Below, piece by piece: positions 17,985 to 27,817 of a stretch of DNA of 64,000 nucleotides (its first letter is position 1; the number at the start of each line of letters is the position of its first letter). The notes under the pieces are model-generated. The model had not been told where the DNA came from. It did not search any database and saw only the letters and a program-made list of their open reading frames with translations. A program made the translations under genes and the position numbers. Source of the stretch: Colius striatus (taxonomy: Eukaryota > Chordata > Aves > Coliiformes > Coliidae); contig NC_084789.1 of the NCBI RefSeq assembly GCF_028858725.1, positions 40,775,211-40,839,210 on the forward strand, read 5' to 3'.

Positions 17985-18526
17985 TGTTATAAATTGAGAC
18001 CTCAATGGATCATAATTCAATTATGATTTTATTAATTATAGCAAGTAGAATATGAGCAAAGACAGGGCTGGACGACAGGGGAGTCTGCGCTCCGCCAACT
18101 GCCGTACTGATTAGTTTAAACAGTCCTTTTTTATACATTTTACATCCGTGGCCGTGAAGTACTGGAGGTACTCTGCGCATGCTTCAGTTGCTGTGAGGGG
18201 GTCGTTTTCTGCCTTCCAGTGGTTGTTGAGTAAGGAGTCTTCCTCCTTTGTTCCATAGTTGATCCCTCACTCATATGTCCTTATATGGAGTCGTTTGTCC
18301 TACCTCTGCCAGTTCCTCAGGACATCCTGTGATTATCTTTGAACAGTATCTCTTCTGCTTGCACAAGCGGTATCTGGTTTGTGTAAGCAATTGCGGTTAT
18401 CTTATCTCACACAAGGATGTCTGGCAGCTGTTTGCATAAGCGATTTCCTGTCTTTTGTTGTCTAACCTTTATATTGAGCTTAACATAAATTTCAATAAAC
18501 AATACCCTAATTCATAGTTTCTTACA
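17985..18526 (-). mobile_element. 3' LTR of left ERV-A
   Basis: 542 bp, TGTAAGAAAC (ending at 18526) to ATAACA (17985). The last 60 bp differ from the right-arm LTR at about six sites. The left flank CCCTCT and the inverted flank beside the right copy (CTCTCTCGG when reversed) overlap by CTCT in the empty-site sequence (15288-15307), consistent with a 4-bp target-site duplication. Confidence 0.85.
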
Positions 18527-18560
18527 ATCCTCCCTTTTTCTTTTATCCTATTATTGTTTA

Positions 18561-19415
18561 TTAGACGCTATTTTCATTTTCGGCACTGCAGGCAAATCTT
18601 TTTTTTTCAGAGAAAGTGGGTGGATTCAGGACCAGATTTGGTCCTATTGGCAAAGGATCATGAGGAAGCTTTTCTTTGACTATTCTAAAGAAGCTTCCCC
18701 TATCTGTTCCTGGTTCCCAATATCTAATTCCCCAGATACGGCCAATTAACCACGTGTCATCTTGGGGTTCCTTGACTTTTATTTCTAGTCTCCAACACGT
18801 CTTCGGAGGTCCACAGTCTCCATGTACACCTCCGTTATATCCATGTTTAGGTTTATTACATCCAGGGGGTCCCCAAGTGATTTCTAAATGTTTATCTGGG
18901 TTGGTTTCCCAGTCTGAAGCTATGGTTTCACATCCCCAATAACCACAGTAATAATGCCCTGGGTAGTTACAATAACTTTTCCCAGGATTTGATGCCGGAC
19001 ATACGTACCATGCCTTGCATTGTGCTTGAGCTTTACTCTTGTTGAGGCATGTATTCCCATAGCATCCTTGTGCTTCAATGGGTATCAGTGAAAATAAATG
19101 TACAGTAAAATTCCAATCGTTCCCTGAAATACTTCGATTTTGTATAAGTTTACTTTCTTGCAGATTGTATATTTTCCAAAGCATCGGTTCATGAGGGTTT
19201 CCATTTGCTTGAGTTATTATCAATAACAAAACTAACGGTAGGCCAGGAAGAAAGGTGTCTGTTAATTTTGCCAATTTAAGTATATTTTTACCAGTCCTGG
19301 GGAAGTTCGACCATTGCTGCCTTTGCGTCCCATTATTCTGGTTCTTTTCTCCACAGTTTGTTCCTCCTCTGCCTCGCCCGTCGACTCGGTTGCTTCGAGC
19401 CACGGGGTGTACCAT
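18561..19415 (-). pseudogene. ERV-A left: Env SU N-terminal part
   Basis: A 284-codon open frame, identical to the right-arm copy. It has a long Asn/Arg-rich leader, a hydrophobic signal (LPLVLLLIITQANG, about residues 59-72), then a Cys-rich SU domain. It ends in an out-of-frame tail, because SU is fused by a deletion to the last bases before the 3' LTR. The TM subunit is absent, so it is not a functional Env. Confidence 0.75.
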
Positions 19416-19603
19416 CTTCTCGGCAGCAAGGGAATTCTTCAGGAGAACAGCTGTTTCGGGCTTTCTGCCTGTTTACATAGGCTTCCCACTTCGCAGCTTT
19501 AATTAATGGGACAAAGCAAAACACAGTTAGCACTTCCCTTTTACACTTTATAGCCAAAATTTCAGCTACAAAGGGGACTGGTTCGTTGGAATTGTTTTAA
19601 TTT

Positions 19604-19969
19604 TCACTCAGTGAGAGTTCTTTGGATTCTCCAACACTGTGTGCAAACTCCTATTGGAGGGTATCCACATTCACAGTGTGTCCACCATTTATCCTGGCAT
19701 ACCTTACACCTAAAACAAGCAAATGGATAACAATTGCAGTTCAAATCATTACACCTAATTCGTATACCTTGAGTGCATATATTATTTACATCAGCATATC
19801 TTCTATATTCAATATTGTGTGGTTGCATAAGTTCAGCAATTCCCTTCAGCACACTTTGTACGCTTCCATATAATAGATAAACAAAGAAATAATTATTGCA
19901 AATATAAATGACAATACACTTTATACCAAAAGGTAACGCAGCAAAATAATCAAATAAAGTCTCTATCAT
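19604..19969 (-). CDS. ERV-A left: ORF-X (Cys-rich, pol-env interval)
   Basis: Intact 121-codon frame that starts just after the pol stop. It has a hydrophobic segment near residues 12-38 (FGIKCIVIYICNNYFFVYLL) and a C-terminal half with about twelve cysteines in short spacings. It is identical to the right copy except Tyr instead of Cys at residue 8. Function unknown; see the findings. Confidence 0.55.
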   Translation of the reverse strand: MIETLFDYFAALPFGIKCIVIYICNNYFFVYLLYGSVQSVLKGIAELMQPHNIEYRRYADVNNICTQGIRIRCNDLNCNCYPFACFRCKVCQDKWWTHCECGYPPIGVCTQCWRIQRTLTE

Positions 19970-19973
19970 TACG

Positions 19974-25832: not shown

Positions 25833-26198
25833 ATGATAGAGACTTTATTTGATTGTTTTGCTGCGTTACCTTTTGGTATAAAGTGTATTGTCATTTATAT
25901 TTGCAATAATTATTTCTTTGTTTATCTATTATATGGAAGCGTACAAAGTGTGCTGAAGGGAATTGCTGAACTTATGCAACCACACAATATTGAATATAGA
26001 AGATATGCTGATGTAAATAATATATGCACTCAAGGTATACGAATTAGGTGTAATGATTTGAACTGCAATTGTTATCCATTTGCTTGTTTTAGGTGTAAGG
26101 TATGCCAGGATAAATGGTGGACACACTGTGAATGTGGATACCCTCCAATAGGAGTTTGCACACAGTGTTGGAGAATCCAAAGAACTCTCACTGAGTGA
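25833..26198 (+). CDS. ERV-A right: ORF-X (Cys-rich, pol-env interval)
   Basis: 121 codons, starting 5 bp after the pol stop and ending 189 bp before the env ATG. Residues ~12-38 are hydrophobic and could span a membrane. Residues ~66-115 hold about twelve cysteines, including a CNCx4CxxCxxC run, and a WW pair. I do not recognise the family. It is present in both arms, and in copy 3 (55026) it is open for 69 codons before a stop. The CNCx4C pattern recurs in the downstream Env tail of copy 3, so ORF-X may be a duplicated Env anchor-plus-tail; that is inference. A chance ORF cannot be excluded. Confidence 0.55.
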   Translation: MIETLFDCFAALPFGIKCIVIYICNNYFFVYLLYGSVQSVLKGIAELMQPHNIEYRRYADVNNICTQGIRIRCNDLNCNCYPFACFRCKVCQDKWWTHCECGYPPIGVCTQCWRIQRTLTE

Positions 26199-26244
26199 AA
26201 ATTAAAACAATTCCAACGAACCAGTCCCCTTTGTAGCTGAAATT

Positions 26245-26469
26245 TTGGCTATAAAGTGTAAAAGGGAAGTGCTAACTGTGTTTTGCTTTGTCCCATTAAT
26301 TAAAGCTGCGAAGTGGGAAGCCTATGTAAACAGGCAGAAAGCCCGAAACAGCTGTTCTCCTGAAGAATTCCCTTGCTGCCGAGAAGATGGTACACCCCGT
26401 GGCTCGAAGCAACCGAGTCGACGGGCGAGGCAGAGGAGGAACAAACTGTGGAGAAAAGAACCAGAATAA
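26245..26469 (+). CDS. ERV-A right: small Arg-rich ORF overlapping env
   Basis: 74 codons overlapping the env start in another frame. The C-terminal third is strongly basic (SKQPSRRARQRRNKLWRKEP), resembling an arginine-rich RNA-binding motif. The corresponding stretch in copy 3 is disrupted, so conservation is not shown. It could be a by-product of the basic env leader. Confidence 0.3.
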   Translation: MAIKCKREVLTVFCFVPLIKAAKWEAYVNRQKARNSCSPEEFPCCREDGTPRGSKQPSRRARQRRNKLWRKEPE

Positions 26470-27241
26470 TGGGACGCAAAGGCAGCAATGGTCGAACTTC
26501 CCCAGGACTGGTAAAAATATACTTAAATTGGCAAAATTAACAGACACCTTTCTTCCTGGCCTACCGTTAGTTTTGTTATTGATAATAACTCAAGCAAATG
26601 GAAACCCTCATGAACCGATGCTTTGGAAAATATACAATCTGCAAGAAAGTAAACTTATACAAAATCGAAGTATTTCAGGGAACGATTGGAATTTTACTGT
26701 ACATTTATTTTCACTGATACCCATTGAAGCACAAGGATGCTATGGGAATACATGCCTCAACAAGAGTAAAGCTCAAGCACAATGCAAGGCATGGTACGTA
26801 TGTCCGGCATCAAATCCTGGGAAAAGTTATTGTAACTACCCAGGGCATTATTACTGTGGTTATTGGGGATGTGAAACCATAGCTTCAGACTGGGAAACCA
26901 ACCCAGATAAACATTTAGAAATCACTTGGGGACCCCCTGGATGTAATAAACCTAAACATGGATATAACGGAGGTGTACATGGAGACTGTGGACCTCCGAA
27001 GACGTGTTGGAGACTAGAAATAAAAGTCAAGGAACCCCAAGATGACACGTGGTTAATTGGCCGTATCTGGGGAATTAGATATTGGGAACCAGGAACAGAT
27101 AGGGGAAGCTTCTTTAGAATAGTCAAAGAAAAGCTTCCTCATGATCCTTTGCCAATAGGACCAAATCTGGTCCTGAATCCACCCACTTTCTCTGAAAAAA
27201 AAAGATTTGCCTGCAGTGCCGAAAATGAAAATAGCGTCTAA
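26387..27241 (+). pseudogene. ERV-A right: Env SU N-terminal part
   Basis: 284 codons: a leader of about 70 residues rich in Arg/Asn/Gly, a hydrophobic signal, and SU with paired cysteines and the YWGCETIASDW block shared with copy 3. An internal deletion removes the rest of SU and all of TM, and joins out of frame to the bases just before the 3' LTR. A secreted SU fragment is the most it could make. Confidence 0.75.
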
Positions 27242-27275
27242 TAAACAATAATAGGATAAAAGAAAAAGGGAGGAT

Positions 27276-27817
27276 TGTAAGAAACTATGAATTAGGGTAT
27301 TGTTTATTGAAATTTATGTTAAGCTCAATATAAAGGTTAGACAACAAAAGACAGGAAATCGCTTATGCAAACAGCTGCCAGACATCCTTGTGTGAGATAA
27401 GATAACCGCAATTGCTTACACAAACCAGATACCGCTTGTGCAAGCAGAAGAGATACTGTTCAAAGATAATCACAGGATGTCCTGAGGAACTGGCAGAGGT
27501 AGGACAAACGACTCCATATAAGGACATATGAGTGAGGGATCAACTATGGAACAAAGGAGGAAGACTCCTTACTCAACAACCACTGGAAGGCAGAAAACGA
27601 CCCCCTCACAGCAACTGAAGCATGCGCAGAGTACCTCCAGTACTTCACGGCCACGGATGTAAAATGTATAAAAAAGGACTGTTTAAACTAATCAGTACGG
27701 CAGTTGGCGGAGCGCAGACTCCCCTGTCGTCCAGCCCTGTCTTTGCTCATATTCTACTTGCTACAATTAATAAAATTATAATTGGATTATGATCCATTGT
27801 GGTCTCAATTTATGACA
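27276..27817 (+). mobile_element. 3' LTR of right ERV-A
   Basis: 542 bp, TGTAAGAAAC to TTTATGACA, preceded by a polypurine tract (agaaaaagggagga, 27261-27274). It has a TATA box tgtataaaaaagg at about 27665 and aataaaatt near the end. The last 60 bp match copy 3's LTR better than they match the left arm, pointing to LTR-LTR recombination. Confidence 0.85.

Follow-up and report, generated by a model that had tools for sequence, protein, structure and literature searches.

Human fold-back inverted duplications with a single-copy spacer have been described by Hermetz et al. (2014; PMC3907307), a paper drawn on here, like the others cited, in excerpt. In yeast, inverted duplications begin with fold-back annealing, fill-in and a hairpin-capped chromosome; the dicentric then breaks and is stabilised chiefly by recombination at repeats, for example delta long terminal repeats (LTRs) or PAU genes (Al-Zain et al. 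2023; PMC10622511). Palindromes are also described on sex chromosomes, as the human Y palindrome P6 with its arm-to-arm gene conversion (PMC3723533) and as a W-linked palindrome of sparrows and blackbirds (Davis et al. 2010, via PMC7692361). Here, a 64-kb stretch of the Colius striatus genome (the window: contig C39, positions 40775211–40839210, in a genome of 1.21 Gb) was analysed for a near-perfect palindrome whose arms are two copies of one broken endogenous retrovirus (ERV). Unprefixed coordinates below are positions within the window.

The palindrome fits the known fold-back class and is an unusually well resolved example of it. Judged from the assembled sequence, fold-back priming followed by LTR-mediated capture would be the best model for its origin, and a reasonably probable one. 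In a literature search covering abstract openings, no inverted or palindromic provirus and no LTR-resolved vertebrate fold-back was recognised among the papers listed, which is not proof that none is in print.

Arms of the palindrome and their host flanks

Each arm is a defective gammaretrovirus-like provirus with its 5′ end towards the centre. The left arm (17985–22831, minus strand) carries it in antisense and the right arm (22971–27817, plus strand) in sense. Compared as mirror images at the position sum of 45802 proposed by the earlier, sequence-only reading, the arms were identical at 4839 of 4847 positions with no indels, as that reading had claimed. The eight mismatches are at 17988, 18002, 18017, 18025, 18038, 19947, 22143 and 22678 (left-arm coordinates). 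Five of them fall in the outermost 54 bp of the arm, a clustering with P of about 9e-9 under a uniform spread (for one given terminal 54 bp), and the remaining 4793 bp hold exactly three (19947, 22143 and 22678), in agreement with the earlier count of about three substitutions outside the last 60 bp. Those terminal 60 bp had been set aside; they proved to be the informative part, since their five differences mark the second junction. The three internal differences are all transitions, two of them at CpG sites where the left arm has the TpG or CpA state. Similarity ends at once outside the arm bounds, and neither the 139-bp spacer nor the two outer flanks show mirroring. The window contains no N, and no Rfam family matched it at gathering scores.

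The host flanks show that both arms come from one insertion into a host repeat, named A here. The 3′ LTR of the left arm ends exactly at 17984/17985. Leftward of it lies repeat A (17382–17984, plus strand), the native 3′-side flank, to which the provirus is antisense; it matches the A copy at about 14640–15297 at 589 of 603 positions and ends in the target-site bases CTCT. In the right arm, the first base of the 5′ LTR is 22922, and the 90 bp before it (22832–22921, minus strand) are repeat A in reverse orientation. This stretch forms the first part of the spacer and the native 5′-side flank. It is present once here, is 97–98% identical to the other best A copies, and agrees with the copy at 15285–15400 at 85 of 91 positions.

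The left flank has TCCCTCT at its end and the reverse-complemented spacer has CTCTCTCGG at its start, and the uninterrupted site reads TCCCTCTCTCGGGACAAGG in all seven other A copies examined (L002–L008, the best matches). On that site the two provirus flanks overlap by 4 bp (AGAG/CTCT), which is the target duplication. The 3′ flank of the right arm, TTAG, differs from its 5′ flank, the AGAG duplication being divided between the left arm and the spacer. One insertion would give just this arrangement: the native 5′ flank beside the right arm, the native 3′ flank beside the left arm, and a single 4-bp duplication split between left arm and spacer. The sequence-only reading had deduced a genomic duplication of one already-broken provirus from the shared deletions; the split host flanks and the split duplication now support it beyond those.

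Also considered was the independent insertion of two proviruses of one broken lineage in opposite orientations, since the family is multi-copy and the window holds a further member with a truncated 5′ LTR. Each arm would then need a target duplication of its own, whereas a single one is divided between left arm and spacer; in addition, the deletion joints and a private C at LTR position 461 are common to both arms. This origin is extremely improbable and was rejected on the split target duplication.

Spacer, junctions and mode of origin

The spacer (22832–22970) consists of the 90 bp of host A and the first 49 bp of the 5′ LTR (22922–22970, plus strand). It is present in a single copy, runs on into the right arm only, and is absent from the left arm, which stops at LTR position 50 and there abuts the far end of the 90-bp host stretch. 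At this first junction (22830–22832) the LTR and host A have a 2-bp microhomology, GA (GA/TC). The sequence reads TATATTGA up to the join and CCCAATATCC beyond it; the LTR continues GCTT, and the GA is common with the parental A, which before CCCAATATCC reads GGGA (GGGACCC) in six of the seven copies, the seventh (L008) being unmatched by the motif used. This anatomy is the one expected if a 3′ end in host A folded back onto the adjacent provirus, and the left arm, whose 5′ LTR is without its first 49 bp, would then be the likely fold-back copy. Among the 13 sequenced human fold-back junctions with 2–8 bp of inverted microhomology reported in PMC3907307, seven have 2 bp. A small inverted repeat, ATATTG...CAATAT, also spans the junction (22825–22839), either by chance or as a hairpin at the join.

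The second junction lies in the LTR at the outer end of the right arm. The left-arm 3′ LTR (17985–18526, minus strand; 542 bp) borders the native flank and aligns without gaps to L025, a solo LTR on contig C1, at 514 of 542 positions; L025 is its nearest relative among the loci compared. L025 and the arms share bases around LTR 246–255 where, at two positions, 26 of 26 and 24 of 26 other LTRs have gaps, and the LTR of the arms belongs to a distinct group. At LTR 489, 502 and 510 the left arm has T, C and A, as in L025, while the right arm has C, T and G, the common bases in 24, 26 and 26 of the 26 other LTRs, respectively. The C at LTR 461 is private to both arms (none of the 26, and not L025). 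The arms differ at 525 and 539 as well, though these positions do not separate the groups (A in one and in ten of the 26).

The 26 rows behind these counts are the second copy of the family in the window (copy 2, 51510–57142) and 25 loci drawn from the best-scored matches. They are non-independent, in that some are near-identical copies or possibly the two LTRs of one provirus, and they include L014 despite its poor alignment (303/481). Left out were 17 of the 43 loci, namely L001 (the window), L002–L008 (host A), L009, L010, L021 and L027 (the arms), and L022, L023, L029, L030 and L042 (repeats of a locus).

The right-arm 3′ LTR (27276–27817, plus strand) thus reads as a hybrid, with the arms' private base at 461 and common-subfamily bases from 489. 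It is followed by a foreign flank, B (27818–27848, minus strand), consisting of the first 30 bp or so of an ERVK-like LTR. Flank B matches the LTR start at 29365–29411 and was also read beside the ERVK-like LTR starts at about 15967 and 59993. Because the right arm takes the common bases from 489 and its flank is foreign, not A, the simplest reading of its LTR end would be one homologous exchange with another LTR of the family that sat in an ERVK-like LTR. The LTR state counts place the putative exchange at 27736–27764 (plus strand), between the TATA box at LTR 392 and the polyadenylation signal at LTR 494. The first junction is resolved to the base and the second to 28 bp.

Gene conversion of the left-arm end, in place of an exchange on the right, would explain the terminal bases only, and is less simple because flank B needs a right-side exchange anyway. 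The terminal differences were also viewed as a hairpin-templated mutation cluster, three changes appearing by eye to perfect small inverted repeats. This idea was dropped, as L025 shows the left-arm bases at 489, 502 and 510.

The sequence itself holds one insertion, a single spacer continuous with one arm, a 2-bp microhomology junction, and a mixed right-arm LTR with a foreign flank. In the proposed route, a double-strand break 90 bp outside the provirus, in host A, would have left a DNA end that folded back and paired over 2 bp with the provirus 5′ LTR. The folded end would have primed copying back through the provirus, and the hairpin so formed, once replicated, would have given the inverted duplication in a dicentric. 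The first junction would thus have preceded the second, at which homologous exchange with a second LTR of the family, at a presumed other locus, would have reconnected an end of the duplication to the chromosome. As in the LTR-resolved fold-backs of yeast, the outer end of the right arm is joined inside a dispersed repeat to other sequence.

Both junction types would fit replication template switching as well, in a route resembling microhomology-mediated break-induced replication and related models in print (PMC2621351, PMC10766183 and PMC4352052). A fork stalled in another LTR would switch by homology into the provirus LTR, copy it, invert at the 2-bp microhomology and copy back, with no broken dicentric. 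Two inverting switches are needed, however, and the sequence gives this route no preference over fold-back priming; we regard it as rather unlikely. An ectopic inversion between LTRs, by which ends were exchanged with an inverted LTR further right, would yield the right arm, the spacer and flank B. Both arrangements would still have to be joined, the two copies being juxtaposed by an end-joining deletion or unequal exchange in a second, independent event, and no reciprocal junction was seen in a search made only through one flank–LTR pattern. Such a history is very unlikely.

In an assembly artefact, the repeated LTR would have linked a fold-back read or contig end with an unrelated locus. With an LTR this abundant (2809 first-look candidates, of which 40 were scored), a misjoin inside it is conceivable. 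Nevertheless, two separate errors are required, one of them inside the LTR; the arms show no indel in 4847 bp, and the window has no N. A fold-back of one molecule predicts no true differences between the arms, yet the three internal transitions are present, two at CpG, and if C39 is the W chromosome, as argued below, they cannot come from allelic variation. A simple fold-back read further predicts a mirrored outer flank, in place of which the hybrid LTR and flank B were found. The mixed LTR, the foreign flank and the transitions at CpG sites thus speak against a simple assembly fold-back; a more complex misassembly, with a fold-back plus a misjoin inside the LTR, would be conceivable, and an artefact of any such kind is distinctly unlikely.

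Several points weigh against fold-back priming with LTR capture. The palindrome is known from assembled sequence alone. Microhomology of 2 bp is weak evidence, given that at least 2 bp also occurred in 134 of 1000 simulated spacers in PMC3907307, and the geometry therefore weighs more here. The spacers in that paper are mostly of a few kb, against 139 bp at this locus. Target duplications are not uniformly 4 bp in the ERV family: copy 2 has a 4-bp duplication (GGTG), and among five more LTRs for which the host sequence on both sides was read, L031 has 4 bp, L012, L024 and L033 have 5 bp, and L025 has an imperfect 5 bp. L025 differs from both arms at 11 sites in LTR 400–474, where the arms mostly carry the majority base, which makes it a distant yardstick there. 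A mosaic or converted state is conceivable for the left LTR end too, and the bounds of the exchange presuppose a partner LTR without the C at 461. The other half of that partner was not found: a guessed flank–LTR pattern allowing up to two mismatches matched only L033, which has its own 5-bp duplication, and the 10 kb on either side of the window held neither a partner LTR nor flank B, though a further piece of host A was present.

Content of the provirus

In the right arm, the provirus begins with a 5′ LTR stub (22922–23006, plus strand; LTR 1–85) that is identical to the start of the 3′ LTR at 85 of 85 positions. The remainder of the LTR is missing, and the stub meets the leader some 120 nt beyond the point where the LTR normally ends, a joint placed by alignment and judged from one relative, L020. 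The left arm holds only LTR 50–85 (22796–22831, minus strand) because the left copy begins at the first junction. The earlier claim of a common 5′ LTR deletion therefore stands for the leader joint, seen by alignment in both arms, but not for the inner end. The deletions between reverse transcriptase (RT) and integrase and between the surface protein (SU) and the LTR, named by the same reading, were recovered from open reading frames (ORFs), profiles and a comparison with copy 2, and are carried by both arms because the arms are near-identical there.

The coding remnants lie on the plus strand in the right arm. A gag ORF remnant (23205–24419, mirrored at 21383–22597) was identified from the ORF list and Pfam profiles, with a Gag p30 match (Gag_p30, PF02093) of 104.1 bits (cut-off 27.4) and a zinc knuckle marginally under threshold (20.6 bits, cut-off 20.8). 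An RT N-terminal fragment (24777–25187, mirrored at 20615–21025), truncated by the RT–integrase deletion, was called as RT by reading of the ORF list; on its own it had no Pfam match. The C-terminal part of integrase (MLVIN_C; 25214–25828, mirrored at 19974–20588) was recognised by a profile match to the murine leukaemia virus (MLV) integrase C-terminus (PF18697, 42.6 bits, cut-off 29.2), and its alignment begins at residue 203 of the foamy virus enzyme. Given this starting point, and since only the RT N-terminal fragment precedes it, the arms appear to lack most of RT, RNase H and the integrase N-terminus. An envelope SU fragment (26387–27241, mirrored at 18561–19415) runs towards the LTR, with a TLV_coat score of 22.4 bits marginally under the cut-off of 22.5; no transmembrane part of the envelope was seen in the arms among ORFs and profiles. 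Between integrase and env lies a cysteine-rich ORF of 121 aa (25833–26198, mirrored at 19604–19969), possibly an accessory ORF, for which no Pfam match was found at E 0.01.

The LTR starts of the right-arm provirus are 4.35 kb apart. Among the best-scored matches, 13 pairs of LTR tails lie less than 25 kb apart, and 11 of these are direct, as in ordinary proviruses, with spacings of 8.0–8.1 kb (six pairs) or 5.7–7.1 kb (five pairs). The palindrome is expected to be a passive relic with no LTR promoter driving into the arms, because its 3′ LTRs face away from the centre and the TATA box is absent from the central stubs (LTR 1–85 and 50–85). Hairpin instability and arm-to-arm gene conversion are its only likely activities.

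Two further elements of the window were noted. Copy 2 lies inside an ERVK-like provirus (ORFs 50493–51119, 57107–57478 and 58281–59093), whose dUTPase ORF it interrupts. The 5′ LTR of copy 2, too, is truncated (76 bp), though the joint is another one, so that both family copies of the window have 5′-truncated LTRs. Host repeat A includes an imperfect 81-bp tandem unit and is present as two neighbouring copies (14640–15300 and 17382–17984), the second of which is interrupted by the left arm.

Chromosomal setting and comparison with known systems

Contig C39 (42.3 Mb) stands between C38 (0.87 Mb) and C40 (89.0 Mb), and C39 and C40 resemble W and Z by their order. C39 also holds 37 of the 59 distinct LTR-tail matches (best-scored only, the two arms included). 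Because of the contig order, this concentration of ERV LTRs and the published view of the avian W as a refugium for ERVs (PMC8310711), C39 is likely to be the W chromosome.

The two inverted pairs of LTR tails belong to the studied palindrome and to a second site on the same contig (C39:34985788/35007303), and two palindromes carrying this ERV family were thus seen on C39. The second has ungapped arms of about 13.6 kb (34977101–34990680 and the mirror to 35016119) and a spacer of 11.9 kb (L055, L048–L051 and L056). Each of its arms carries two LTRs of the same ERV family, 85.5–85.7% identical to the LTR of the studied arms. A core of 11.8 kb is identical between its arms, with 16 differences in the outer 1.2 kb and five in the inner 590 bp; outward, gapped similarity continues in tandem-repeat-like sequence (91% over 5.4 kb, including the outer part of the arm).

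An identical core with diverged edges is the pattern that arm-to-arm gene conversion would leave. The studied palindrome would be young if its arms had evolved independently, but its three internal differences in 4793 bp fit youth or gene conversion alike. In view of the conversion-like pattern in the second palindrome, arm identity cannot date the first. The choice offered by the sequence-only reading, very recent or an assembly fold-back, was therefore too narrow: the hybrid LTR and foreign flank are unlike a simple fold-back read, and the second palindrome shows that identity is no clock. Near-identity of such arms proves neither recency nor misassembly.

On a tentative view, which we hold to be conceivable but doubtful, ERVs on the non-recombining W may act both as seeds and as rescue sites of fold-back palindromes. 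Breaks near a provirus would fold back, dispersed LTRs would capture the copied end, gene conversion would homogenise the arms, and the ERV load would in this way build W palindromes. The locus allows the idea that ERV density drives the birth of palindromes on that chromosome to be tested directly. What makes both junctions of an apparently natural germline fold-back closely readable here is that the unit duplicated was a provirus, with its target duplication and with LTRs that carry subfamily marks.

The provirus resembles gammaretrovirus-like ERVs in its Gag_p30 and MLV-type integrase C-terminus, and perhaps in its 4-bp target duplication; it differs in being grossly deleted, and some LTRs of its family have 5-bp duplications. 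With the sex-chromosome palindromes in the excerpted literature (PMC3723533 and PMC7692361) the locus shares near-identical inverted arms on a probably non-recombining chromosome, although its arms are a provirus and gene conversion is only a possibility for it.

The human fold-backs, as far as the excerpts of PMC3907307 describe them, share the single-copy spacer continuous with one arm, the 2-bp inverted microhomology and an outer end joined elsewhere. Those are large duplications of many genes, whereas here the arms are 4.8 kb, the spacer 139 bp, the duplicated unit a provirus on a presumed W, and the outer junction within an LTR. The yeast fold-backs at delta LTRs or PAU genes (PMC10622511, in the parts drawn on) likewise combine a centre made from short inverted homology with a second rearrangement at dispersed LTRs. 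They were induced by Cas9, are frequent in Sae2- or Mre11-deficient cells and had their translocations mapped, in contrast to a natural locus read from an assembly. The palindrome would thus tie the yeast repair route, a fold-back followed by LTR-mediated capture, to an ERV-rich chromosome that is probably the W.

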